From: a virus
IMG/VR virus record: IMGVR_UViG_3300010396_001261
Coordinates: 1-25,544 of that record
Length of the DNA stretch: 25,544 nucleotides
Direction: 5' to 3' (one strand)
The position numbers and the translations under genes are program-made. The notes under the pieces are model-generated. The model had not been told where the DNA came from and searched no databases. It was given only the letters and a program-made list of their open reading frames with translations. Positions 1,716-25,544 of this stretch are shown piece after piece; position 1 is the first letter of the stretch, and each line of letters starts with the position of its first letter.

Positions 1716-2096
1716 ATGAAAAAACGACCCGCTTCATTTGAACACGCCTGCGAGATGCGCGGGTATGATCCCGCAACCATTTTGCCCGATGTATCAAAAA
1801 TGCCTGAAGCGCTTGCCAAATACACCACGGCGGCTGTTAAGCGCCTGGTGATCGTGGAAGCCATTAACGACGGCAAGGTGCCGCAGCCAGGACAGACATG
1901 GCGCTATTTCCCGATATTCAAAAAGACAGGCTCGGGCTTCGGGTTCCTGTACTCGGACACGGACTACGGTAGCACGGGCACGGACGTCGGCGCCCGCCTC
2001 GAATTTTTCACGCAAGCCGACAGCGACTATTTCGGAAACAACTTTAGGGGCCTGCACTACGACGTGATGGTAGTAGAGCAGCCAGCAGAACAATAA
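1716..2096 (+). CDS. DGR target protein 1 (distal)
   Basis: A 126-residue soluble protein without signal peptide. Residues 73-95 are encoded by variable repeat VR1. The framework shared with the two targets at 9089 and 9555 is an N-terminal helical part, then an alanine-rich helix ending IxxAxNxGKxP, then W-x-YF, then SGFGF-x-YS, the variable tract, VGARL, and a closing helix (GNNFRGLHYD). In DGR target proteins the variable tract normally sits on a C-type-lectin-like fold and forms a binding surface. That fold is expected here but not provable by eye. It is the third early gene, between the Cro-like and transposase genes and about 8 kb from its template. I chose the ATG at 1716 because an upstream in-frame start would run through the small membrane gene. 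Confidence 0.85.
   Translation: MKKRPASFEHACEMRGYDPATILPDVSKMPEALAKYTTAAVKRLVIVEAINDGKVPQPGQTWRYFPIFKKTGSGFGFLYSDTDYGSTGTDVGARLEFFTQADSDYFGNNFRGLHYDVMVVEQPAEQ
1932..1999 (+). repeat. DGR variable repeat VR1
   Basis: A 68-nt match to the template repeat at 9995-10062, in the same codon register. Every difference lies at a template adenine: 8 of 17 adenines in the core are changed, plus the four edge adenines shared by all variable repeats. It ends with the GC-rich 14-mer GTCGGCGCCCGCCT; the next base (C instead of T) is the first non-adenine mismatch and sets the 3' boundary. Confidence 0.93.
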
Positions 2097-2103
2097 AACC
2101 ATA

Positions 2104-2143
2104 TTCCCGAAAGCGTAACCGCGCCATCGCCGCGCGGCGGGAA
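2104..2143. other. nested stem-loop between DGR target 1 and the transposase gene
   Basis: TTCCCG (2104-2109) pairs with CGGGAA (2138-2143), and inside it CCGCGC (2119-2124) pairs with GCGCGG (2132-2137). It starts 7 bases after the target stop codon and ends 21 bases before the transposase ATG. There is no T-run, so it is more likely an attenuator or processing signal than a strong terminator. Confidence 0.5.
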
Positions 2144-2164
2144 CCCCTAAAATAATTAAACACT

Positions 2165-4186
2165 ATGCCGCATTTGTGGAATAACCAATTAGTAGTAACC
2201 AAAGACGAGCTTGTGCCAGCCTGGTATAAAACCGTTAATGCGCTCTGCGTTACGGTCCAGCGGTTCAAGGACCGGGAATGGGGTATCAAACGGGCATCGA
2301 CCGGGCATAACGGCTCGCAGATGCTGATCCTATTCGATAGTCTCGCCCCGCAGATACAGCAGGCCCTCGGCGATCCGCGCAAATGCACCCACATCCTGGA
2401 GCGGTTTTTTAAGATAGACGGCGACGCCGTTTCCTTTTACGCTTCCTTCCGCTTTGAGGACGGCACCTACCTGGCTACCGAATACCAGGAACGCTACATT
2501 GCCAACGCAAGTATGATCAAAGCGGTCATAGCCCTTCGGCAGGACCGCGAAACCATGCGCCGCAACCTCGGCGGCAAGCTCAAGAACGTACCGGCAACAC
2601 TATGCGCGGATGCCCACAGCTTCCAACCCACGTTGCTCTCAAAACACAAACTGCAACATACCCTACCCGAGAACGAGCGCTGCTTTATGGACGCGATCAG
2701 GGCGTTTGAGCGCGACGGCTACCCCTCGCTGATCAGCAAAAAACACAAAAACCAAAATACCCGCAAAGTTACCGATGAGACGCTCGACTTATTGAACAGC
2801 CTGTTTGCCGGTGACCGCGCCAAGCCGACAGCTACCGAAGTTTACCGCCGCTATGATGCCTTTATCAACGGCTACATGGAGGTGATCAATAACAATACGG
2901 GCGAGCTTTACGAGCCGGCTGAATTCAAAAAGCTCAGCGACGCCACCGTTAAAAACTACATGGCGCAGTGGGTAAATAAAATAGGCACTTACTCGCTGCG
3001 CAGCGGCGACAGGCAGAAACTGATGCAACAGTTTAAACCACACCATACGCTTTTAAAGCCCAAACACGCGGGCAGTATTATATCTATCGACGACAGGCAG
3101 CCACCTTTCAAAACCCCCAACGGTAACCGCGTTTGGTTCTATAACGGTATCGACCTGGGCAGCGAGGCATTCACCTGCTGGGTTTACGGCGATACCAAAG
3201 ACGGTATCATCACCGAGTTTTACCGCCAGCTGGTACGCAATTATGCGCAATGGGGTTTAAGTCTGCCCTATGAGCTCGAGGCCGAAATGAGCTTGAACAG
3301 TTCCTTTACCGGGACCTTTCTTCGCGAGGGCGCCATGTTCTCCAAAGTGCGCATCGAAGCCAACAACGCCAGGGGAAAGCGGATAGAGCGATATTTCAGG
3401 AGCCTTCGGTATGGTTTGGAAAAGGACCGCGAGGGGTGGCTGGCCCGTCCGTTCGCGTTAAGCGAAAGCAACCAGGCCGGCCCACGCGACGTGCCGGCTC
3501 TTCCTGAGCGCACTATCATCGAAAACGCCCTGCGCGACATCGAGACATGGAACAATCAGCCGCACTCGGTACACACACACATGAGCAGGTGGCAGGTGTT
3601 CTGCGAAATGCAGCACCCCGACCTGAAGCCGATCAATTACCCAGCTATACTGCCACATATTGGCCGTAAAACACCAACAAGTTGCAATGTCGGCATCGTT
3701 CATCTTCAAAGGAAAGAATTTTTATTAGCCAATGACGGCAAGATAGCACTCGGTGATAAGCTGATCCAGCTGATGAAGCAAGTGGAAGGCAAAGACGTGG
3801 ACGTTTGGTGGCTCGACGACGATCAGGGCGTCGTGTTAAAAGCACTGGTATTTATCGGCACGCAGCTGATCTGCGAGGCTATGGCCAAACCTACCTATAA
3901 CCGCGCCACGCTGGAACAAACCGATGTTGATCGCGGAAGCCGTCAGATCATGAGCGCTTATGTGAAAACGATCGAGTCGTTCGCCAAGCGGCAAAAGAAA
4001 AGCATCGATAAGGTTACCCTTGTCGATAATCGCCCTGCACTCAAAAAAGACTTCGTTATGCCCGGACTACGCCAGGACAGGCTGCAAGATATGCCAACCG
4101 GCGGCTTGCTGCCCGAGCCGGAAGAGGACGAACTGGTACACGTTCCGCAGGAAAGCTTTGTGCGGACGCTTAAAGACAGATTTTAA
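2165..4186 (+). CDS. Mu-type DDE transposase (subunit A)
   Basis: A 673-residue protein in the position and of the size of MuA (663 aa). The N-terminal part is a DNA-binding module. The central part is an RNase-H-like catalytic core starting at GSIISIDDRQPPF (D309 or D310) and closing with ANNARGKRIERYF, whose E408 fits the catalytic glutamate. The C-terminus resembles the Mu transposase beta-barrel and tail. The usual D-N-G of the second carboxylate is not seen; the equivalent stretch reads LPYELEAEMSLNSSF, so E370, E372 or E374 may take its place. The enzyme nicks the phage ends and transfers them to target DNA, for integration and replicative transposition. It is followed 11 bases later by the MuB-like ATPase gene. 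Confidence 0.93.
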   Translation: MPHLWNNQLVVTKDELVPAWYKTVNALCVTVQRFKDREWGIKRASTGHNGSQMLILFDSLAPQIQQALGDPRKCTHILERFFKIDGDAVSFYASFRFEDGTYLATEYQERYIANASMIKAVIALRQDRETMRRNLGGKLKNVPATLCADAHSFQPTLLSKHKLQHTLPENERCFMDAIRAFERDGYPSLISKKHKNQNTRKVTDETLDLLNSLFAGDRAKPTATEVYRRYDAFINGYMEVINNNTGELYEPAEFKKLSDATVKNYMAQWVNKIGTYSLRSGDRQKLMQQFKPHHTLLKPKHAGSIISIDDRQPPFKTPNGNRVWFYNGIDLGSEAFTCWVYGDTKDGIITEFYRQLVRNYAQWGLSLPYELEAEMSLNSSFTGTFLREGAMFSKVRIEANNARGKRIERYFRSLRYGLEKDREGWLARPFALSESNQAGPRDVPALPERTIIENALRDIETWNNQPHSVHTHMSRWQVFCEMQHPDLKPINYPAILPHIGRKTPTSCNVGIVHLQRKEFLLANDGKIALGDKLIQLMKQVEGKDVDVWWLDDDQGVVLKALVFIGTQLICEAMAKPTYNRATLEQTDVDRGSRQIMSAYVKTIESFAKRQKKSIDKVTLVDNRPALKKDFVMPGLRQDRLQDMPTGGLLPEPEEDELVHVPQESFVRTLKDRF

Positions 4187-4197
4187 TTTTTAATGAT

Positions 4198-5097
4198 ATG
4201 ATCAATATCTCAGGAGAACTAAAAGAACAGGCACGGCTCGCCCTGCTTACACAGCGCGAGAACTTCGACGGCAGCGACGCCGCCTTTGCCAAACAATGGG
4301 GAATAAACCAGGGCGTATACAGCCGCCTTAAAAAAGGGCAGATCGACGGCGTGCTCGCCGATCCGCACTGGCTGAACATCTGCCGCGAGCTGAACGTGGG
4401 CGCGACCGTACGCAAATGGGAAATAGCCCGCACCGACGTGTTTAACCAAATTGAGGAGGATGTGCTGTTTTGCAAGGAGCATGCCAAGGCGATGATCTTC
4501 GTTGACGACTGCGAGATAGGCAAAACCGTCGCCGCCAAATACCTTTCACGGAACCTAAAGAACTGCTTTTACATCGACGCGAGCCAATGCAAAACTAAAC
4601 AGCAGTTTGTGCGCAAGCTGGCAAAAACCATCGGCGTTGATCAAAACGGCAAATATGCCGAAGTAAAGGCCACGATAAAATACTACCTCAAGATATTGCC
4701 TAAGCCGATCGTGATCGTTGACGAGGCCGGCGACCTCGAATATAACGCCCTGATGGAACTTAAGGAGTTTTGGAATGCGACCGAGGGCGCATGCGCCTGG
4801 TACATGATCGGCGCCGACGGGCTGCGGGCCGCGATAGACCGGGGCATCAGCAACAAGAAGGTTGGTTACCGCGAATTGTTTAGCCGGTACAGCAACAAAT
4901 ACAGCAGCGTAGTGCCGCAGGGTAACCAGGCCAAGTTGATGTTCTATAAAAAGCTGATCGGCGACGTACTGCGCGTGAATATGAAGGACACTACGGACAT
5001 CGATAAGATAATTAACAAGTGTATAACCCGCAAGGATAACGATGTGAACATCGGCGGCCTGCGCCGCGCCGAAAGCATCCTGCTGCTCAATCAATAA
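4198..5097 (+). CDS. MuB-like AAA+ ATPase, transposition subunit B
   Basis: A 299-residue AAA ATPase directly after the transposase. Residues 1-80 form an HTH-like N-terminal domain (AAFAKQWGINQGVYSRLKKG), as in MuB. The P-loop is FVDDCEIGKT, with aspartate where the first glycycle-position small residue of the Walker A motif is normally found, and Walker B is PIVIVDEAGDL. An arginine-rich C-terminal helical region follows. MuB binds target DNA as filaments, activates MuA and gives target immunity. The family assignment is strong because of gene order, size and the HTH-AAA layout. Confidence 0.9.
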   Translation: MINISGELKEQARLALLTQRENFDGSDAAFAKQWGINQGVYSRLKKGQIDGVLADPHWLNICRELNVGATVRKWEIARTDVFNQIEEDVLFCKEHAKAMIFVDDCEIGKTVAAKYLSRNLKNCFYIDASQCKTKQQFVRKLAKTIGVDQNGKYAEVKATIKYYLKILPKPIVIVDEAGDLEYNALMELKEFWNATEGACAWYMIGADGLRAAIDRGISNKKVGYRELFSRYSNKYSSVVPQGNQAKLMFYKKLIGDVLRVNMKDTTDIDKIINKCITRKDNDVNIGGLRRAESILLLNQ

Positions 5098-5102
5098 GAT
5101 CA

Positions 5103-5747
5103 ATGCGCAAACGGTCACTCAGCATGAAGGCACTCTACAACATGAAATACGATCTTTTCCCTTTTGACGGCATTTGGCTCGACGTATTCGGCACACCCGA
5201 AAAGGACGGCGCCTGGATGATATGGGGAAGCGAAAAGAACGGCAAAACGTGGATGGCCCTTTTGCTCAGCAACTACTTCAGCACGTTCGCGAAGCTGCTT
5301 TTCGTGTCGGGCGAGGAAGGGCTTGGCAGCAACTTCCAGGCGAGCTGCAAACGGGCCAATATAAGCCCGCAGAACGCGCGGTTTGTGCCAAGCGGGTATT
5401 TAACCATCGACGAGCTGTATGCGCTGCTGAAGCGCCGCAATGCGCCAAAGGTGGTTGTGCTGGATAACATCACCATCTACAATGACGAGCTAAAGAACGG
5501 TGCGCTCAGGAAGCTGATCATAGACTTTCCGTCCGTGCTCTTCATCTTCCTGGCACACGAGGACCGCGGCGAGCCATACACAGCGACCGCTAAACTGTGC
5601 AAGCGGCTGGCGAAAGTGATCATTTACGTGGAAGGGCTGGCGTGCTCGGTAAGCGGCCGCTGCCCTGGCGGCAGGATCAGCATCGACGAGGAGCGGTCGG
5701 CATTATACCATGGCGAAAACGGATTTAAAAAGATAGGCGCTATATGA
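5103..5747 (+). CDS. P-loop NTPase, RecA-like
   Basis: A 214-residue ATPase. Walker A is WGSEKNGKTWMALLL and a Walker B-like stretch is PKVVVLDNITIY. Between them is FVSGEEGLGSNFQASCKR, which resembles the segment after Walker A in RecA/DnaB-type cores, where a glutamate activates water. The compact single-domain size recalls phage single-strand-annealing ATPases of the Sak4 type or AAA_25 proteins. It starts 5 bases after the MuB-like stop and overlaps the next gene by 4 bases, so it belongs to the replication/transposition block. A second start at 5127 is possible. The exact role in recombination or remodelling is inferred. Confidence 0.75.
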   Translation: MRKRSLSMKALYNMKYDLFPFDGIWLDVFGTPEKDGAWMIWGSEKNGKTWMALLLSNYFSTFAKLLFVSGEEGLGSNFQASCKRANISPQNARFVPSGYLTIDELYALLKRRNAPKVVVLDNITIYNDELKNGALRKLIIDFPSVLFIFLAHEDRGEPYTATAKLCKRLAKVIIYVEGLACSVSGRCPGGRISIDEERSALYHGENGFKKIGAI

Positions 5748-6130
5748 ACTTTTTTAAGGTAAAAACCACACACATAGCCGAAGTGCGCGAGCAGCAGGCA
5801 AACCAAATGGACGAGGTATGCGCCCTGCTCGAATGGTCGCGCGATAAATACTGCCGTCACCAGTTCAGCGAATACGAAAAGTTTTGCCAGTTGCTGGCCG
5901 GGTTCGACCCGGAGCTAAAAAGGCGGTTGAGGTACTCGCCGGTGTTCCGTGGTTTTTGGAACAACGAGTGGGCCAGCCGGAACGCTACCGACTTTTTGCC
6001 GTTTGCGACAGAATGCGAAAACGGTCCCGCATGGATACTGGAAGAATATTTATTTATCAATTCGGCCGCGCGCCTGATCATGTGCAACGCTTTTGCAAGG
6101 CGGTTTGAAAAGATTTTAAAGAGCATTTAA
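5744..6130 (+). CDS. hypothetical early protein
   Basis: A 128-residue protein translated from an ATGA overlap with the preceding NTPase gene. It is rich in aromatic and charged residues (DFLPFATECENGPAWILEEYLFINSAARLIM in its second half) and looks mainly helical. There is no signal peptide or membrane segment. I do not recognise a family. The next gene begins at the base after its stop codon, so translation is coupled through this whole block. Confidence 0.7.
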   Translation: MNFFKVKTTHIAEVREQQANQMDEVCALLEWSRDKYCRHQFSEYEKFCQLLAGFDPELKRRLRYSPVFRGFWNNEWASRNATDFLPFATECENGPAWILEEYLFINSAARLIMCNAFARRFEKILKSI

Positions 6131-6478
6131 ATGGGATTGGAAGACATCATATTCATTGTTGAGTTGGAGACTGGTTACACCCTAACTCAGATGATCGAGA
6201 ACAGCGGTAATGCCTACTATGCCAAATGTATCCTGGCGCTGATGGCACACGAGGAGGGGATAAAGGATAAAACGGAGCTTGCGGGCCTGCTGAAGGTCGA
6301 GCGCAACACGATATACACTTATATCAACCGCGCCAACCTGCTCTTATCCACCTGGCCGGGCATGCCGGGCTATAACAAGGTTTTTAAAATGCTTTACCTC
6401 GAGTGCAACCGCCGCAGGGTGTACCTCGAGGAAAGGCCGGAACTCACATTAACATACAAACAGGAATGGTGCGCATAG
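6131..6478 (+). CDS. small HTH-containing early protein
   Basis: A 115-residue protein. Residues about 40-75 (EEGIKDKTELAGLLKVERNTIYTYINRANLLL) read as a helix-turn-helix: a first helix, the turn at LLKVER, and a recognition helix NTIYTYINR. This suggests DNA binding, either as a regulator or as a replication accessory. It begins immediately after the upstream stop codon and its end overlaps the DnaA-like gene. Family not recognised. Confidence 0.7.
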   Translation: MGLEDIIFIVELETGYTLTQMIENSGNAYYAKCILALMAHEEGIKDKTELAGLLKVERNTIYTYINRANLLLSTWPGMPGYNKVFKMLYLECNRRRVYLEERPELTLTYKQEWCA

Positions 6479-6939
6479 ATAACATGATTGAGGCATGTGC
6501 CGTGATCAACAAGGCATCAAGTGAGCTAACCCGGCTGTTTGGCTGCACGGTAGAACTAAAGCTTGTACAGCCGTTTATTTCCGGCCTGGGCTACGAGGTG
6601 CCAAAGCCGGGCCAGCTTTACGAGGATATCCTGGTCAACAACACAGTGAGGCTTGTATGCGACGAATTTGGCATAACCTATACTGAGCTGCGGTTAAGGC
6701 GGCAAACGCGTGAGCGTGTAGATGCCCGGAAAATGATCGCGTACCTACTGAACAAATATGCCCCCAAAATGACCGATAAAACGATAGCCAATGTGATATG
6801 TCGCGACCGGACCACAGTTTACTACAGCATCGACCGGGCTGCGGACCTGATCGAAACCCATAAGGGCTTTAAGCTGGCTTATGATAAGATTAACGCGAAG
6901 CTGGAAGCAATAATTGAAGGCGATAAAATTGAGATATAA
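6466..6939 (+). CDS. DnaA domain IV-like DNA-binding protein
   Basis: A 157-residue protein from the ATG at 6466, which has a purine-rich stretch just upstream; 6484 is an alternative. Its C-terminal half (ARKMIAYLLNKYAPKMTDKTIANVICRDRTTVYYSIDRAADLI) matches the pattern of DnaA domain IV, where the signature GRDHTTVxHA contacts the DnaA box. Here it reads CRDRTTVYYS, so the contact residues R-D and T-T-V are kept. No AAA+ domain is present. This points to a stand-alone DnaA-box reader that could bind host or phage origin-like sites. Gene order places it in the replication block. Confidence 0.8.
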   Translation: MVRIDNMIEACAVINKASSELTRLFGCTVELKLVQPFISGLGYEVPKPGQLYEDILVNNTVRLVCDEFGITYTELRLRRQTRERVDARKMIAYLLNKYAPKMTDKTIANVICRDRTTVYYSIDRAADLIETHKGFKLAYDKINAKLEAIIEGDKIEI

Positions 6940-6942
6940 AAA

Positions 6943-7251
6943 ATGAGAATAATCCTTACACAAAAACAACTGACCGCGCTGCATGAATACTTTGCCGAGC
7001 ACGTGGTGAACGACCGGCCCGAGAACATAGCCGAGGCGCTGGTAAAGAGCCTGGTGATGCGCGTTTTTCAGAAAATGAACAAAAAAGTATACGCCAGGCT
7101 GCAAGGTATGGGATACAGCCTGCACCTGACCGACGAGGAGGCGATGGCCTATTACGTGTACTTCCAAAACCGATTTATCGGCGAGGGATACCAATACCAG
7201 CAGCTGCTTATCCAAACACATATTAACCAAATAGACCAGGCTTATGCATGA
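6943..7251 (+). CDS. hypothetical early protein
   Basis: A 102-residue protein starting 3 bases after the DnaA-like stop. It is mostly helical by eye, with an LTQKQLTALHEYF start and a tyrosine/glutamine-rich end (EGYQYQQLLIQTHINQI). No membrane segment or known motif is visible. It overlaps the next gene by 8 bases. Function unknown. Confidence 0.65.
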   Translation: MRIILTQKQLTALHEYFAEHVVNDRPENIAEALVKSLVMRVFQKMNKKVYARLQGMGYSLHLTDEEAMAYYVYFQNRFIGEGYQYQQLLIQTHINQIDQAYA

Positions 7252-7450
7252 CGACAGAATAAAAGCGATCAATCTTCATTTGGAGATCGTCGACCTTGAA
7301 ATATGGCTGCTGCAAAACCCCGGCGCTATGGACGACGACATTATCCATGTGAACATGCAGATCATCCGCAAGCGATTAGAATTAGGAATTTTAAAATCAA
7401 ACATACGTAAAAATGAACTTAACAGTAAAACAGCAGAAACCAGCCGATAA
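7244..7450 (+). CDS. small hypothetical early protein
   Basis: A 68-residue helical, charged protein. It overlaps the preceding gene by 8 bases and the DUF3164 gene by 38 bases, all in different frames. The two long amphipathic stretches (INLHLEIVDLEIWLL and VNMQIIRKRLELGILKSNIRK) suggest a small coiled-coil or helical hairpin. Family not recognised. Confidence 0.5.
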   Translation: MHDDRIKAINLHLEIVDLEIWLLQNPGAMDDDIIHVNMQIIRKRLELGILKSNIRKNELNSKTAETSR

Positions 7451-8048
7451 GAATTGGCTCGACGAACAGGGGATGACCATACCCTATGCCCGCACAACCG
7501 GGTACGAAAGGATGGCCGAAGGGAATATCGGCAAAATGGCCAAACAGGCGCTTGACCTGAGCAATAAGCTCACCGACTTTAAAAACACTTTAAGAATAGT
7601 GGTAATGGGCTTGCATAAGGAATTTATCAAAAGCAACAACGGCCGCGCTGTCGGTAAGGGGAAAGGCAATATTACACTGTACAACTTCGACCGATCGGTT
7701 AAGGTCGAGGTAAATGTTAACGAGCCGATCCACTTTGACGAGGAGTATATCAAGCTTGCCAAGGCCGAGCTGGACGCCCTGCTTGCCGACGAGCTGTCGG
7801 GCGCATCGAGCTGGATAAAAGGCGTTATAGCCGACGCGTTCGAAAAGAGCCGTGGCGAGCTGGACACAGACAAGGTGCTGAGCCTTAAAAAGCATGCATC
7901 GCGCACAACCGATGCCAGGTACCACAAAGCCATGGAGTTTATCGATAAGGCCATCAACCGCCCCACCAGCAAAGAATATTACCGGGTGTGGGTGCGCGAC
8001 GAGGCCGGCCAGTATCAAAACGTACAGCTTAATTTTTCGGCGATATGA
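7413..8048 (+). CDS. DUF3164 family protein
   Basis: A 211-residue protein typical of the DUF3164 family, widespread in the early region of Mu-like phages. The central MAEGNIGKMAKQALDLSNKLTDFK helix, the GKGKGNITLYNFDRSVKVEV strand pair and the long acidic/lysine-rich helical segment after it are the visible family features. Molecular function is not established. The 3' end has a 4-base overlap (ATGA) with a tiny membrane-protein gene. It is one of the markers identifying the element as Mu-like. Confidence 0.85.
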   Translation: MNLTVKQQKPADKNWLDEQGMTIPYARTTGYERMAEGNIGKMAKQALDLSNKLTDFKNTLRIVVMGLHKEFIKSNNGRAVGKGKGNITLYNFDRSVKVEVNVNEPIHFDEEYIKLAKAELDALLADELSGASSWIKGVIADAFEKSRGELDTDKVLSLKKHASRTTDARYHKAMEFIDKAINRPTSKEYYRVWVRDEAGQYQNVQLNFSAI

Positions 8049-8134
8049 TACGGGCGCTGGTGCTGCTGGTTTTCCTTTTCCTTTTATACCTGGCGTTTTA
8101 CGACGGCGGCCAAAACAACAATTATCAGGCATGA
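8045..8134 (+). CDS. 29-residue hydrophobic peptide
   Basis: A very short reading frame that starts in an ATGA overlap with the DUF3164 stop codon and ends overlapping the ATG of the next gene. It encodes one hydrophobic helix (LVLLVFLFLLYLAF) and a polar tail (YDGGQNNNYQA). The overlaps on both sides argue for real translation. It could be a membrane peptide involved in early takeover or leader-type coupling; no homologue is recognised. Confidence 0.45.
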   Translation: MIRALVLLVFLFLLYLAFYDGGQNNNYQA

Positions 8135-8343
8135 GCAATATCCAAATTGAAGTTGACGGGGTTGTGACCAACCTCCGAAACAAAACCGACCTGCTGAAGG
8201 TGATCGGCGATATGAACAAGGCGTGCGCCTCGAAAGTGAAGAGCGGCGCGGTAAAAACGAACGCTAAAAAGCAGGCCGAGCTGGCTACGCTGTCGTTTTT
8301 CGGCAGCATCGCTCATTACCTGCAAGGAGGTATGGAGCCATGA
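8131..8343 (+). CDS. small hypothetical early protein
   Basis: A 70-residue protein (start MSNIQIEVDGVVTNL) with a beta-rich N-terminus and a lysine-rich helix. It overlaps the hydrophobic peptide gene and the next gene by 4 bases each, so it belongs to the coupled early string. In-frame codons upstream of 8131 lie within DUF3164, and I do not use them. Function unknown. Confidence 0.6.
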   Translation: MSNIQIEVDGVVTNLRNKTDLLKVIGDMNKACASKVKSGAVKTNAKKQAELATLSFFGSIAHYLQGGMEP

Positions 8344-8567
8344 AAGAAAACAAGTATAAGGTGCGCCAGGCTGTTTATTGCTTCCTCGATGGCGAGGTGG
8401 TGATGGCTTTCGTCTCGGCCATCCAGGAGGAGTCGGCAGATATAAACAGTCCGCTGCAATACAGGCTGCGCGGCTGGGATAAGTGGATTCCCGAGAACAA
8501 GATTTTCGATAACAAGTTCGCGCTGATCAACAGTGTCGATATACGCGATCTGACAGTAAATAATTAA
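8340..8567 (+). CDS. small hypothetical early protein
   Basis: A 75-residue protein starting at an ATGA overlap. The composition suggests a small beta-barrel (VRQAVYCFLDGEVVMAFVSAIQ, then YRLRGWDKWIPENKIF), like KOW/SH3-type folds, but this is only a pattern impression. It is followed by 16 non-coding bases before the next small gene. Confidence 0.6.
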   Translation: MKENKYKVRQAVYCFLDGEVVMAFVSAIQEESADINSPLQYRLRGWDKWIPENKIFDNKFALINSVDIRDLTVNN

Positions 8568-8583
8568 CCTAATTAATAAGACG

Positions 8584-8733
8584 ATGAAACTATTCAAATT
8601 TTGGGTATGCATGATATTCCTGGCACTCCTGCTATGCTTCATAAGCACCTGTATTAAGCGCCAGGAGGTCATGGACGAGCAGGACCGTATCGACAATCAT
8701 TCAGAGATAACACCACAAACGCTGAACGAATAG
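8584..8733 (+). CDS. 49-residue small membrane protein
   Basis: The start FKFWVCMIFLALLLCFISTC is a hydrophobic stretch of about 18 residues that could be a membrane anchor, or a signal with a poor lipobox ending in C23. It is followed by a charged C-terminus of about 25 residues. The gene has its own A-rich leader (aattaataagacg) and ends 2 bases before DUF4406. No family recognised. Confidence 0.5.
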   Translation: MKLFKFWVCMIFLALLLCFISTCIKRQEVMDEQDRIDNHSEITPQTLNE

Positions 8734-8735
8734 CT

Positions 8736-9074
8736 ATGAACCTGCCGATAAACAAAGACAAAATACCTGTCAATTTTCAGAACCTGCCAGCTGTGTACAT
8801 CGCCGGTAAGGTAACGGGCCTCCCATACGATGAGGTGCTGTTAAAATTCAAGAAAAAGCAACGCGAGCTGGAGGGGCTTGGCTTCTTTGTGCTGAACCCG
8901 ACCGAGATAATGGGCGACGCCGATTGCGACTGGAAAATAGCCATGCGGGTATCAGTGATCCTGCTGGCCAATGCGGATCACATCTGCCTGCTGCCCGACT
9001 GGCACCTTAGCCCCGGCGCTACGCTGGAGCGTGAGCTTGCGCTAAAGCTGGGCATATCAACGATTGACGACTAA
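8736..9074 (+). CDS. DUF4406, nucleoside 2-deoxyribosyltransferase-like
   Basis: A 112-residue protein with the DUF4406 pattern: VYIAGKVTGLPYDE at the N-terminus (a Rossmann-like first strand and phosphate loop), a helix of lysines and glutamates, GFFVLNPTEI, then ADHICLLPDWHLSPGATLERELALKLGI, whose W-x-x-S-x-GA-x-x-E-x-x-LA part is the signature of the fold. The fold is related to nucleoside 2-deoxyribosyltransferases. Activity on nucleotides is plausible but unproven in this subfamily. It is often seen in phages. It lies just before the DGR targets and 2.4 kb before the DndC-like gene. Confidence 0.85.
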   Translation: MNLPINKDKIPVNFQNLPAVYIAGKVTGLPYDEVLLKFKKKQRELEGLGFFVLNPTEIMGDADCDWKIAMRVSVILLANADHICLLPDWHLSPGATLERELALKLGISTIDD

Positions 9075-9088
9075 GCAAACAAATAACA

Positions 9089-9553
9089 ATGAAAATAAAA
9101 CTTAACCTCAACGGCGGGGAGATCGAGGTCGACCTTACCCCCGAACAAATTAACAAGATCAAAGCGATGCCGGGGAGCATCGAGGATCGCATCGACGGCT
9201 GGGAAAGCGTGGCCGCGATCATGGGCTTTCACCCGGTGGATGACCTTCCTTATCCTAATCCTAAAACGGAGCGCCAGGAGGCCGTGAATGCCTTCTTTGT
9301 GATGGACGTGGCCGCCGACGCCTATAACGAGGGTAAGATACCCGACTTCCAGGATGCCAAACAGGAGAAGTGGTTCGATTATTTTAAGCGCAACCCATCG
9401 GGCTTCGGGTTCCTGTACTCGCTCACGTTCTACGCTCACACGCACTCGTACGTCGGCGCCCGCCTTTCTTTATTGAAACGGGAACACGTCGCCGATCGGG
9501 CAAAGAAGTTCGATACCTGGATACAAAAATTATTAACTAAAACAAAGCAATAA
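9089..9553 (+). CDS. DGR target protein 2
   Basis: A 154-residue soluble protein without signal peptide. Residues 104-126 are encoded by variable repeat VR2, and the current variable residues include Y, L, F, A, H, H, S and Y. The N-terminus has a short beta motif (MKIKLNLNGGEIEVDLTPEQINKI) lacking in the other two targets, so the shared core is joined to different N-terminal parts. The shared core is AAxxAYNEGKIPD, W-x-DYF, SGFGFLYS, VGARL and a closing helix ending DTWIQK. It is 2 bases from target 3 and probably co-translated. No tail-fibre or virion feature is visible. Confidence 0.88.
   Translation: MKIKLNLNGGEIEVDLTPEQINKIKAMPGSIEDRIDGWESVAAIMGFHPVDDLPYPNPKTERQEAVNAFFVMDVAADAYNEGKIPDFQDAKQEKWFDYFKRNPSGFGFLYSLTFYAHTHSYVGARLSLLKREHVADRAKKFDTWIQKLLTKTKQ
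9398..9465 (+). repeat. DGR variable repeat VR2
   Basis: A 68-nt copy of the template repeat in the same codon register. 10 of 17 core adenines are substituted, the four shared edge adenines are replaced, and no non-adenine position differs. It ends with GTCGGCGCCCGCCT. It lies 597 nt upstream of the template. Confidence 0.95.
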
Positions 9554-9554
9554 C

Positions 9555-9947
9555 ATGAAAACACCCCAACAAATCAAAACCTGGGAAGACGTTTGCGAAG
9601 GACTGCAAATTGACCCCGTAAAATCGCTGGAGTTCCTTCAGTACATGGATGCGGACGACCGCGAGCATCACGAATTTGACTTTAAGCTCAAAAAGCTGGC
9701 AAAGCTGGCCTGGGGCAACGTCGAGGCAGACTTCCGTAAGGGCCGCCAGGAGAAATGGTTCCCTTTATTTAACGGCAACCTTAGTGATAAACCCTCGGGC
9801 TTCGGGTTCCTGCGCTCGCACTCGTACTACGGTCACACGTGCACGGTCGTCGGCGCCCGCCTTTCCTATCCCTCGGAAGCATGGGCTGATTGCGCGGGCC
9901 GCGAATTTGAGGATTGGTACCGCAAAGCTTACGTGGTGGTAAAATAA
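9555..9947 (+). CDS. DGR target protein 3
   Basis: A 130-residue soluble protein. Residues 81-103 are encoded by variable repeat VR3, the most changed of the three. The framework W-F at RQEKWFPLF, then SGFGFLRS, VGARLSYP and the closing helix AGREFEDWYRKAYVVV, matches the other targets. The EFEDWYRK end is close to the end of target 1 and target 2. A free cysteine appears in the variable tract (codon TGC from AAC). It ends 47 bases before the template repeat, giving the classic target-template-reverse transcriptase order. Confidence 0.88.
   Translation: MKTPQQIKTWEDVCEGLQIDPVKSLEFLQYMDADDREHHEFDFKLKKLAKLAWGNVEADFRKGRQEKWFPLFNGNLSDKPSGFGFLRSHSYYGHTCTVVGARLSYPSEAWADCAGREFEDWYRKAYVVVK
9795..9862 (+). 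repeat. DGR variable repeat VR3
   Basis: A 68-nt copy of the template, offset by exactly 200 bases from it. 11 of 17 core adenines are changed (for example AAC to CGC, TGC and GTC, with both adenines altered). No non-adenine differences occur. It ends with GTCGGCGCCCGCCT. Confidence 0.95.
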
Positions 9948-10174
9948 TTAAGAACTAAGGGTTGTATGCTGTATGCTGGCTGTGGCTGGGTTACTCAGGC
10001 TTCAGGTTCCTGAACTCGAACACGAACTACGATAACACGAACACGAACGTCAGCGCCCGACTTACTTGAACTTACACGGCATAGACCTTGCCAGCATGGC
10101 AAAAAATAACGAACAAAAACCGGGCGTTGGTACCCCGCTCAACCGGGAGAACACGACCGCTAAAAGAAAAGGCA
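9948..10174 (+). ncRNA. probable DGR RNA carrying the template
   Basis: A 227-base stretch without a conserved gene, between target 3 and the reverse transcriptase. It holds the template repeat and, after it, a perfect 6-bp hairpin (TTGCCA-GCA-TGGCAA, 10088-10102). In studied DGRs the template lies in a structured RNA that the reverse transcriptase primes on, with essential sequence downstream of the template. The ends of this RNA cannot be seen. A 31-codon frame starting at the ATG at 10096 and ending at 10191 also lies here. Confidence 0.6.
9995..10062 (+). repeat. DGR template repeat (TR)
   Basis: A 68-nt non-coding repeat whose core (10013-10048) is built from AAC and ACG codons with TAC and GAT, 17 adenines in 36 bases. 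It is the unmutated master of the three variable repeats: 41 of 63 adenine comparisons differ and 0 of 141 others. AAC and ACG codons can vary widely at A without ever giving a stop codon. Its last 14 bases differ from the variable repeats at two adenines (GTCAGCGCCCGACT against GTCGGCGCCCGCCT), as expected for an IMH*/IMH pair that sets the direction of transfer. Confidence 0.95.
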
Positions 10175-11152
10175 TTGAAACGGATCGGTAATTTATACAA
10201 TAGCGTTTGCAGCATCGAAAACCTTATGCTTGCCGATACAAAGGCCAGCAAGCGAAAATCGCAGCAGCATGGCGTGCGTGTGCATAGAAAACGTCGCGGC
10301 TGCAATATCCTGTCGCTGCACAATTCGCTGATGGATAATGCCTTTGTCACATCGCCGTATCACACCTTTATCCTGTACGACCCAAAAGAACGCGAAATAA
10401 AGGCGTTACCGTACTTCCCCGACCGCATTGTCCACCACGCGATAATGAACGCCCTGGAGCCCGTATTTACCGGCTGCTTTACCGCAGATACCTACAGTTG
10501 CATTAAAGGCAAAGGCATACACGGCTTAAAGCGCGGCATCGAGCGCGCGCTGAGGAATGCGCCCGCAACGAAATACTGCTTTAAGCTGGACGTAACCAAG
10601 TTTTACCCGTCTATTGGTCACGCAATACTGAAACAGCAGCTCCGTCGCAAGATAAAGGATAAGGACCTGCTGGCGCTGCTCGACGAGATCATCGACAGCT
10701 CGCCCGGCGTACCGATCGGGAATTACCTGAGCCAGTATTTCGCCAACTTCTATCTTACGGGGTTCGACCATTGGTTAAAGGAAACGATGCGCGTAAAGCA
10801 TTATTTCCGGTATGCCGACGATATGGCCATCCTGGCGCCGACCAAAGAGGAGCTTCACAAACTGCGCGTTGCCATAACCCAATACCTGGCAGATAACCTG
10901 AAGCTAACGGTAAAGGGTAACTACCAGGTATTCGAGGTAGACGAACGCGGGCTTGACATGGGCGGCTATCGCTTTTACAGCACGCATACACTACTGCGCA
11001 AGTCGATCAAGAAAAGCCTGTGCCGCGTTATCGCCCGGCGCAGAAAGCGCAATGCAACTGTAAATCGTTCGTCCGTTTCCGCTTATTACGGCTGGGCAAA
11101 GCATTGCGACAGCAGGCACCTGCTCAGGAAACTAAACCTTAACCTATCATGA
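10175..11152 (+). CDS. DGR reverse transcriptase
   Basis: A 325-residue RT from the TTG at 10175, giving MKRIGNLYNSVCSIENL, the usual start of DGR reverse transcriptases. An upstream in-frame TTG at 10088 would add 29 atypical residues. Motifs in order: LPYFPDRIVHHAIMNAL (78-94), SCIKGKGIHGLKR (108-120), FKLDVTKFYPSI (136-147, first catalytic aspartate D139), GVPIGNYLSQYFANFYL (178-194, the GNxxSQ form typical of DGR enzymes), YADD (213-216) and LDMGGYRF (260-267). No maturase, endonuclease or integrase domain is present, which separates it from group II intron RTs. It copies the template RNA into cDNA with errors at adenines for transfer into the three targets. Its stop overlaps the next ATG. 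Confidence 0.95.
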   Translation: MKRIGNLYNSVCSIENLMLADTKASKRKSQQHGVRVHRKRRGCNILSLHNSLMDNAFVTSPYHTFILYDPKEREIKALPYFPDRIVHHAIMNALEPVFTGCFTADTYSCIKGKGIHGLKRGIERALRNAPATKYCFKLDVTKFYPSIGHAILKQQLRRKIKDKDLLALLDEIIDSSPGVPIGNYLSQYFANFYLTGFDHWLKETMRVKHYFRYADDMAILAPTKEELHKLRVAITQYLADNLKLTVKGNYQVFEVDERGLDMGGYRFYSTHTLLRKSIKKSLCRVIARRRKRNATVNRSSVSAYYGWAKHCDSRHLLRKLNLNLS

Positions 11153-11445
11153 ACACATTTGCACAATTTGGAATAGAGAAAATTACACAACGTGCCCAAT
11201 TTACGGGGCCTAAAATAACGGTTGGCAAGGTGCTTAACCGCGAGATCATAGTTAATGCCTATCGCATCGTCGACAGCAAGTTTGAAGGCAAGCGCCTGGA
11301 TATTGACATTTTGTTAAACGACGAGTTGCGCCTGTTGTGGACCGGCCGTAAATCGCTGATGGAAGCGATACAGCTCGTCCCGAAAGACGGCTTCCCATTT
11401 AAGGCGACGATCATATTCGAAAATGAGATTTATCAATTTAGTTAA
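11149..11445 (+). CDS. small protein coupled to the DGR reverse transcriptase
   Basis: A 98-residue protein starting in an ATGA overlap with the RT stop and ending in a TAATG overlap with the DndC-like gene. It is mixed alpha/beta with beta-rich middle (KITVGKVLNREIIVNAYRIVDS) and end (FKATIIFENEIYQF), and reads like a small OB- or ssDNA-binding-like fold. No cysteine or signal peptide. It is not an evident Avd protein, which is a helical-bundle of about 125 residues, but it is the only gene translationally coupled to the RT. Its part in the DGR is unknown. Confidence 0.7.
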   Translation: MNTFAQFGIEKITQRAQFTGPKITVGKVLNREIIVNAYRIVDSKFEGKRLDIDILLNDELRLLWTGRKSLMEAIQLVPKDGFPFKATIIFENEIYQFS

Positions 11446-12653
11446 TGAGAAATATCCAAACAAACCTATTCACAGGCATCAGCAAGCGGCTGCAAATGAA
11501 TGACAGCATAGAACTTACCATTCAATCGCTAAACGCATACGGGCCAAAGTACAACCATTGGGCGCTGGCCTGGTCGGGCGGCAAGGATAGTACCGCAACG
11601 CTGACGCTGGTTGTGTGGCTCATTCAATCCGGTAAGATAAAAGCCCCGAAAACATTAACGGTCCTTTTTGCCGACACACGCCTCGAGCTTACGCCGCTCA
11701 TGGCATCCGCTTACGAGATCATGGACGACCTGAAAGAATTAGGCATAGAGGTTCGCGTGGTCATGGCCGAAATGGATAAGCGTTTCTTTGTGCTCATGTT
11801 CGGCCGGGGCATTCCGCCGCCGGGCGCCGGGTTCCGCTGGTGTACCGGCAATATTAAAATTTCACCTATGGAGAACGAGCTGGCGCGGCTTCATGCTGAA
11901 AAGGGCGAAAAGATATTAATGATCACCGGCGTAAGGCAGGGCGAGTCCGCCGTGCGCGATAACCGGATCATCATCAGTTGCAGCAAGAATGGGACCGAAT
12001 GCGGCCAGGGTTATTACCAGGAAACGCTGCCCGCATCCCTGTGCGATACGCTGGCCCCGATCGTACACTGGCGCGTTTGCCATGTATGGGAATGGCTTCG
12101 CACCTGGGCGCCGTTAGAGGAGTATGGTAACTGGAGTACAAAAATGCTTGCCGAAGCATACGGCGGCGACGAGGCCGAGGAGATCAATGCCCGCACGGGC
12201 TGCATGGGCTGCCCGGTAGCGAGCCAGGATAAAGCATTGGAAACCGTCGTGCTGCGACCTGACTGGCGTTACTTATCGCCACTCCTTCGCTTAAGAAACG
12301 TATTTGAAGAGCTACGCTTAAATAAGTCATTCAGGAAACGGCATCCGGGCGGTGAAACTAAAAAGGATGGCACCCTCGTCAAAAATCAGCAGCGCCTGGG
12401 GCCGCTTACTATGGAAGCCCGGCGCTGGGGCATGTCGCAAATATTAGCGATCCAGTCGGAAGTTAACGAGAACGCCTCAAAGCTCGGTCGGCCGACGATC
12501 GACATCCTAAACCAATCGGAAGTTAATAGGATCAACGAGCTGATCGAATTAAATACTTGGCCTGACAAATGGACCGGCGAGGAGCCGACAGCCGATACGG
12601 TGATGGATGTGTTTTACAAAGACGGAAGTGTTCAACCATTATTAAAATTTTAA
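11445..12653 (+). CDS. DndC-like PP-loop ATPase (PAPS reductase family)
   Basis: A 402-residue member of the PAPS reductase / DndC group of PP-loop ATPases. The AMP-forming loop SGGKDST lies at residues 44-50, RWCTGNIK at 131-138 (C133), and ARTGCMGCPVASQ at 249-261 (C253, C256). These cysteines resemble the iron-sulphur-binding cysteines of DndC. DndC activates sulphur for DNA phosphorothioation; phage relatives act on unknown substrates. The neighbouring ASCH and DUF4406 genes make a nucleic-acid or nucleotide modification role plausible. No dndB, D or E gene is present, so complete phosphorothioation by this locus is unlikely. Confidence 0.85.
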   Translation: MRNIQTNLFTGISKRLQMNDSIELTIQSLNAYGPKYNHWALAWSGGKDSTATLTLVVWLIQSGKIKAPKTLTVLFADTRLELTPLMASAYEIMDDLKELGIEVRVVMAEMDKRFFVLMFGRGIPPPGAGFRWCTGNIKISPMENELARLHAEKGEKILMITGVRQGESAVRDNRIIISCSKNGTECGQGYYQETLPASLCDTLAPIVHWRVCHVWEWLRTWAPLEEYGNWSTKMLAEAYGGDEAEEINARTGCMGCPVASQDKALETVVLRPDWRYLSPLLRLRNVFEELRLNKSFRKRHPGGETKKDGTLVKNQQRLGPLTMEARRWGMSQILAIQSEVNENASKLGRPTIDILNQSEVNRINELIELNTWPDKWTGEEPTADTVMDVFYKDGSVQPLLKF

Positions 12654-25139: not shown

Positions 25140-25544
25140 ATGGAAAAGTTTATCAAACAAGCAAAAGACATTTTCGGCCGCTACTCGCAAAAGGACACGG
25201 TCTATTTCACCGGCGACGGACAGCCGTTTTTTGATGAGAATGCCGCCGCGAACCATAGCCAGTCGCTGGCTGATAAAACAGTAACCGCGATAAGCCGTAA
25301 GAATATTGTCGCCACGGCTGACGAAGCTGACGCACAAGCTGAGGCCGATGCCAAAACAGCAGAAGAGCAGGCCGCAGCAGACGCTAAGGCAAAAGCCGAC
25401 GCCGATGCTAAAGCAGCAGAAGAGCAGGCCGCAGCAGAAGCCCAGGCAAAAGCCGACGCCGATGCTAAAGCAGCAGAAGAGCAGGCCGCAGCAGAAGCCC
25501 AGGCAAAAGCCGACGCCGATGCTAAAGCAGCAGAAGAGCAGGCC
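25140..25544 (+). CDS. repeat-rich protein, cut by the window end
   Basis: At least 135 codons from the ATG at 25140, with no stop before the window ends. The first 60 residues are unique (MEKFIKQAKDIFGRYSQKDT start, no signal peptide). From about residue 62 it becomes an Ala/Glu/Gln/Lys/Asp-rich helix repeating every 19 residues (ADAKAAEEQAAAEAQAKAD). TolA-like and other long single-helix or coiled-coil proteins have this composition. It follows the structured leader at 25020-25116. Its late-operon place suggests a virion or tail-associated protein, but function is unknown. Confidence 0.75.
   Translation, partial: MEKFIKQAKDIFGRYSQKDTVYFTGDGQPFFDENAAANHSQSLADKTVTAISRKNIVATADEADAQAEADAKTAEEQAAADAKAKADADAKAAEEQAAAEAQAKADADAKAAEEQAAAEAQAKADADAKAAEEQA
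25344..25544 (+). repeat. 57-bp tandem repeats
   Basis: Units at 25344-25400, 25401-25457, 25458-25514 and a partial at 25515-25544. Units 2 and 3 are identical and the partial unit matches them exactly; unit 1 differs at a few positions. Each unit is 19 codons, so gain or loss keeps the frame. Confidence 0.92.

Follow-up and report, generated by a model that had tools for sequence, protein, structure and literature searches.

The DNA analyzed in this study is a 25,544-base IMG/VR record, a fragment of a viral genome, which as a whole is called the window in the following. A CI/LexA-type repressor gene on the minus strand (379–1311; HTH_3, phrog_4) faces an early operon on the plus strand with genes for a Mu-like transposase A (2165–4186; phrog_310, 4e-41) and a MuB-like ATPase (4198–5097; phrog_296, 7e-30; AAA_22, 2e-10). 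The Mu-like label given in a preliminary description of this DNA, which was made from the sequence without database searches, agrees with these two matches and with the early operon opposite the repressor and appears sound at the sequence level. The virus is a phage of Bacteroidota bacteria. In the early region, between the repressor and the transposase genes, a small gene coding for 126 aa is located on the plus strand (target 1, 1716–2096). Two further small genes, target 2 (9089–9553, 154 aa) and target 3 (9555–9947, 130 aa), a template repeat (TR, 9995–10062) and a reverse transcriptase (RT) gene follow the early operon in the same direction, and portal, terminase, and head genes are found further downstream. 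Also, a PAPS-reductase/DndC-like protein is encoded just downstream of this cassette (11445–12653; phrog_12882, 1e-173), the product of 6403–6939 contains the C-terminal helix-turn-helix domain of DnaA (PF08299, 3e-11), and a 57-nt tandem repeat in 3.7 copies (25332–25544) runs off the contig end.

The plus-strand TR matches three variable repeats (VRs) on the same strand, one in each target gene: VR1 (1932–1999), which is located 8 kb upstream of the TR, VR2 (9398–9465), and VR3 (9795–9862). In the alignment of the TR with the three VRs, mismatches were found in 41 of 63 comparisons at template adenines and in 0 of 141 comparisons at other bases; 13 of the adenine mismatches belong to VR1, and none of the VRs differs from the TR at a non-adenine position. 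The hypergeometric probability that all 41 mismatches fall on adenines is 2.7e-27. The same four copies were grouped by an independent repeat finder, and a scan with the template adenines as wildcards recovered exactly three VRs and no fourth one within the window; additional VRs may be present beyond the ends of this fragment. The randomised core of the TR (10013–10047) contains 17 adenines, which allow 1.7e10 variants at the nucleotide and 1.2e10 at the protein level, none of them with a stop codon. The VRs lie inside open coding frames. The coordinates of the repeats, both mismatch counts, the core adenines with the resulting number of nucleotide variants and stop-free codons, and the single template serving three genes had all been reported in the preliminary description; the coordinates and counts were reproduced exactly upon realignment, and the other values agreed when recomputed. 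Gene duplication followed by strong selection, without any reverse transcription, would explain why the three targets are paralogs, but not why their differences track template adenines, silent sites included, without a single change at another base, nor why an RT and a structured template RNA adjoin; we consider this explanation to have a negligible probability.

In total, the TR has 21 adenines. At four of them (9997, 10004, 10052, and 10060), one replacement base is common to all three VRs, and two of these replacements are silent; these adenines look like fixed differences between TR and VRs. A profile of 81 TR-VR pairs, numbered from a GTC triplet, revealed randomised adenines between positions −36 and −2, while at +3 the template adenine is replaced by G in 99% of the pairs and at +10 by G in 63 of 63. 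At silent position +14, A is replaced by T (46/46), and at silent position +11 by C (6/6). Since selection on the protein cannot account for the silent sites, these positions are regarded as fixed differences of the IMH/IMH* type. The IMH*-like 3′ end of the TR carrying them is located at 10049–10065 on the plus strand. A stem-loop after the VRs was not found: the longest stems in the window have 3–4 bp, and after the 143 VRs of all loci there was hardly any excess (mean stem 4.24 vs. 3.96 in shuffled sequences).

The RT gene is located on the plus strand at 10175–11152, which corresponds to 325 aa from the likely TTG start codon at 10175. The preliminary description had noticed an RT with the DGR-type (diversity-generating retroelement) motifs GNYLSQ and YADD following the TR; both motifs are present, and the profile matches (RVT_1, 6e-14; phrog_1423, 1.4e-112) support the assignment. 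The open reading frame extends upstream to 10088. However, the gap between TR and RT in relatives keeps sequence motifs, yet it contains stop codons in the RT frame. Therefore, TTG 10175 is probably the start codon, and a start at 10088, inside the RNA described below, is unlikely. In a phylogenetic tree of 35 rows, the window RT grouped with RTs of other phages diversifying small targets (88/84). RTs of phages with tail targets and of crAss-like phages were placed near the window RT and the Hankyphage RT was distant, while some long branches, including that of BPP-1, were placed with little certainty. A grouping with group II introns, which the preliminary description had named as evidence against its reading, was contradicted, as four group II intron RTs were separated from the DGR RT clade at 100/100; the NCBIfam group II model gave a score of 87.6 against a cut-off of 300. 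An RT of a defence system (DRT/retron) was considered as well, and here only generic RT matches below the cut-off were obtained. Many DGRs, though not all, have Avd or another accessory protein. An Avd gene was not recognised among the scanned open reading frames of the window, and a comparison of 54 loci revealed no conserved third gene beside the cassette. The named genomes with relatives of the RT belong, with few exceptions, to Bacteroidota.

Between TR and RT, the plus-strand template transcript is predicted to contain a structured spacer RNA (10063–10174). An alignment of 45 spacers yielded three helices with compensatory changes in 12 of 12 pairs and a covariation of 0.659 compared with 0.234 after shuffling, a value reached by 0 of 500 shuffles. 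From viral contigs, a covariance model (R1) was derived; it matched the window spacer with 94 bits, placed the RNA immediately upstream of the RT gene in 29 of the 30 independent loci L086–L115, and also matched the crAss-like phages cr52_1 and cr55_1; in the 684 kb searched, no match was found away from sites upstream of an RT. The window spacer also matched the Rfam family RT-17 (RF03020; 10084–10179) over the full length of the model with 31 bits and an E-value of 3.7e-4, which is under the gathering cut-off of 40.4, so that it is called only RT-17-like here. The spacers of L026, L054, L035, and L076 scored above this cut-off; that of L026 (4614–4695) is a conserved, covarying RNA resembling RT-17. 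A search of 395 Bacteroidia genomes with the Rfam model resulted in four matches below the cut-off, two of which immediately precede the gene of a homologous RT; judged from these sequences, the Rfam model is narrow. In BPP-1, cDNA synthesis is primed by the folded spacer, which also recruits the RT complex (PMC12875486). By its position, the RT-17-like RNA can be identified as the spacer of the DGR template RNA in these phages, and by analogy with BPP-1 it may fulfil a comparable role in the DGR. RT-17 was named merely for the adjoining RTs, and a function as DGR template-RNA spacer is suggested for it.

The cassette very probably is a genuine DGR acting on three small genes of the phrog_11581 family. 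The RT would copy one RNA containing the TR and the structured 3′ spacer into cDNA, thereby incorporating random bases opposite template adenines, and this presumed cDNA would replace the matching stretch in any of the three paralogous genes, including the one 8 kb away. The fixed differences at the 3′ end (IMH vs. IMH*) probably make the transfer one-way and keep the template intact, as can be expected by analogy. The Bordetella BPP-1 DGR shares the order TR, spacer, and RT, the adenine-specific mutagenesis, and the 3′ differences of the IMH/IMH* type. It differs by its single tail-fibre target with a C-terminal VR (Mtd, a C-type lectin), its Avd gene, and the stem-loop that follows its VR; no counterpart of these was seen in the window.

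For strain comparison, relatives with RTs sharing 57–61% identity with that of the window phage were used instead of the window phage, for which no near-identical relative was found. The loci L019 and L020 are 99.75% identical; they differ at 20 of 72 VR positions with a template adenine, at 0 of 147 other VR positions, at 0 of 73 TR positions, and at 1 of 9429 other sites. Here, VRa and the distant VRc, located 6.4 kb from the TR, had changed. One VR also contains a 3-nt gap between the two loci (near L019:9302), according to which the VR length can be altered by homing or recombination. L052 and L053 differ at 13 of 57 VR adenine positions, at 0 of 177 other VR positions, at 0 of 78 TR positions, and at 0 of 5683 other sites. 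Within the set around L052, only VRa had changed compared with L053, only VRc compared with L056, and VRa and VRb compared with L051. These VR changes of both sets show in nature that a single template serves three genes, including a distant one, independently of each other. The concentration of changes at template adenines, for which the preliminary description had proposed to look in related phages, is thus found in relatives, and a cassette of this kind is active there; the window copy itself is presumably active, too, judged from its intact parts. If it were an inactive remnant instead, the TR/VR pattern would be a record of past activity, for which the Avd gene not recognised among the scanned open reading frames and the near-identical relative not found could be put forward. 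But RT, TR, spacer, and all three target frames are intact, decay would have blurred the 0 of 141 non-adenine differences, and the VR changes in relatives are fresh, so that a remnant is very improbable.

The phrog_11581 profile matched the three target proteins of the window with E-values of 1.5e-8, 0.002, and 1e-8 and all 83 of 83 aligned targets. In profile searches, no Pfam family fits the three targets, and there was no match to a tail family. With target 3 as query, nothing was found in IMG/VR or phage records, as this protein is divergent; a consensus-like relative did find relatives. The VR lies internally in the targets and is followed by about 28–33 residues; the VRs of DGRs are usually C-terminal (PMC8144416). 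The variable stretch is preceded by an alpha-helical N-terminal part and followed by helices at the C-terminus, and AlphaFold2 models have helices around a VR loop or short hairpin, with low pLDDT values of about 50–60 in the VR. A strongly hydrophobic N-terminal stretch was present in none of the aligned targets. With Foldseek, neither of the target models had a PDB match below E 3, the best Z-score in VIA-align was 2.6, and a sequence search of solved structures yielded no match of note. The best matches in BFVD (E 0.01–0.2) were uncharacterised phage proteins. Given the predicted helices with a VR loop or short hairpin and the missing relative in the PDB, a lectin fold of the targets is not supported, though it may still apply. 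In a profile comparison, the VR segment of the small proteins resembled the lectin-type end of tail targets (95%), which is expected since one template feeds both.

Most relatives of the cassette have two such small genes, about 550–650 and 175–200 nt upstream of the TR, and three VRs were present in 13 loci, some of them distant. In a scan of 21 related phages of the small-target type, in which some records were covered in part (e.g. 25 of 33 kb of G001), VRs occurred only in small open reading frames. A tail-fibre VR outside the cassette was looked for and found in none of these 21 phages, although G009 among them carries genes for a tape measure protein, a tail-fibre-like protein, a portal, and a terminase. 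The family of the Mu-like transposase was found in 5 of 34 records of relatives. As the Mu-like phages are thus a minority, the cassette is not tied to them. In L046 (3749–4215), two VRs lie in one open frame of 285 aa, possibly a fused double target, and in L108 no VR adjoins TR and RT, both target VRs being located about 8 kb upstream.

Small proteins of this type are also found in phages whose DGRs diversify a tail protein. In 12 of 12 tail-type phages having a distant phrog_11581-type gene (G030, G031, G039, G040, G041, G042, Versailles, BT-TP2, BI-TP1, cr52_1, cr56_1, and cr60_1), this gene carries a VR of the tail template, the match in G042 being short (40 nt). Three of the 12 phages are crAss-like. 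In named gut phages, the respective locus pairs with the second target are L120/L083 in Versailles, L121/L122 in cr52_1, L214/L215 in cr60_1, L216/L217 in cr56_1, and L082/L085 in BT-TP2. Such a second target was not found in G032, G033, G034, and G044, three of which are short records.

DGRs with several targets and a single template are common: among 948 non-redundant DGRs, 28.6% have several VRs, and 79.9% of these use one template (PMC6642488). Therefore, the three-target system is ordinary in this respect; the single-template cassette with three targets of the preliminary description was borne out, while the surprise it attached to this arrangement was overstated. Two-target DGRs of phages have been described as well (PMC10743442; PMC8143477). 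These multi-target DGRs (PMC6642488), such as those of tentaclins (PMC10743442) and Bacuni phages (PMC8143477), resemble the window by using a single template for several genes, distant ones included, but the targets in the latter two phage examples are C-type-lectin adhesins or tail proteins. DGRs have also been described before in Mu-like phages of Bacteroides, namely in the Hankyphage (PMC6199706). The temperate Hankyphage p00 likewise belongs to the Mu-like phages of Bacteroidota and possesses TR, VR, and RT; its VR is located at the C-terminus of one large target (>2,200 aa), and its RT is only 33% identical to the window RT and belongs to a separate branch. Closer to the window are the crAss-like DGRs of Buchavirus (cr52_1, cr56_1, and cr60_1) with about 50% RT identity and a small phrog_11581-type second target; a related spacer RNA is present in cr52_1 and cr55_1. 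The Buchavirus DGRs, however, primarily diversify a tail protein encoded next to the RT, and the small gene is tens of kb away.

For Quimbyvirus, Benler et al. (2021) proposed a non-structural, conflict-related second target (PMC8008677). The Quimbyvirus/LoVEphage DGR (PMC8008677) resembles the window in that its one TR also serves a second, non-structural target located far away. In the LoVEphage-like BI-TP1, this target is a phrog_11581-type protein, which suggests by analogy that the second target of Quimbyvirus may belong to this family, too. Quimbyvirus differs by also diversifying a protein of the tail module and by an RT split over frames, whereas in the window only phrog_11581 genes are targeted, three in number, two of which adjoin the RT. 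In BI-TP1 (L126; PQ571265, 4737–6644), the RT is also split over several frames, and the TR/VR pairs are still adenine-specific. As far as the consulted literature shows, three points are new, with earlier notice elsewhere being possible: a branch dedicated to small targets, the general occurrence of the second target, and the link to RT-17.

Regarding the function, the targets appear to be non-structural, judged from the gene position, the missing signal, and the lack of VRs in tail genes. We tentatively favour, with a chance placed just below even, that the early, apparently non-structural targets form a small repertoire of phage-made binders inside the infected cell or lysogen, directed against host defences or rival phages and not serving adsorption. 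The early position, the lack of an export signal and of a tail VR, and the random binding surface argue for this role in intracellular conflict. Its main rival is that the same DGR diversifies virion-attached or exported small proteins with a receptor-binding or surface role, as in BPP-1. In relatives, tail proteins are diversified from the template of the small proteins as well, so that the variable stretch would suit a surface binder; moreover, the VR segment is linked to the lectin-type end of the tail targets by the 95% likeness given above, and a relative in Versailles is annotated as a tail protein (HHpred against PHROGs). Nevertheless, the target genes are located in the early region and not in a tail module, the proteins have neither a signal peptide-like N-terminus nor a tail family match, and G009 has its tail genes free of VRs, which makes such a role unlikely. 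That the targets tune intracellular regulation, i.e. lysogeny or transposition, would fit the position of target 1 (1716–2096) beside the repressor and before the transposase, and a small family member also follows an HTH gene in BT-TP2. We regard this as improbable, since no DNA-binding domain was found in the targets, random surfaces fit fixed regulatory partners poorly, and most target pairs lie away from a repressor.

Combining these aspects, we put forward a broader proposal, to which we give somewhat less than an even chance: a lineage of DGRs in Bacteroidota phages may be wholly devoted to two or three small non-structural proteins with a non-lectin, mainly helical scaffold, while tail-type DGRs of the same phylum, including crAss-like ones, may add such a protein as a distant second target, in both cases providing an intracellular repertoire of random binders for conflicts between phage and host or between phages. 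The window DGR is ordinary as a three-target system and worth experiments as a member of the small-target branch. Relatives are present in the cultured strains Yeosuana marina JLT21, Dyadobacter sp. LHD-138, and Dysgonomonas macrotermitis DSM 27370, and the question of a function other than adsorption is therefore testable. Phage DGRs are mostly understood as systems changing tail fibres; if the proposal is true, the branch with small early proteins together with the second targets of tail-type DGRs would mean that targeted hypermutation in phages serves more than adsorption.
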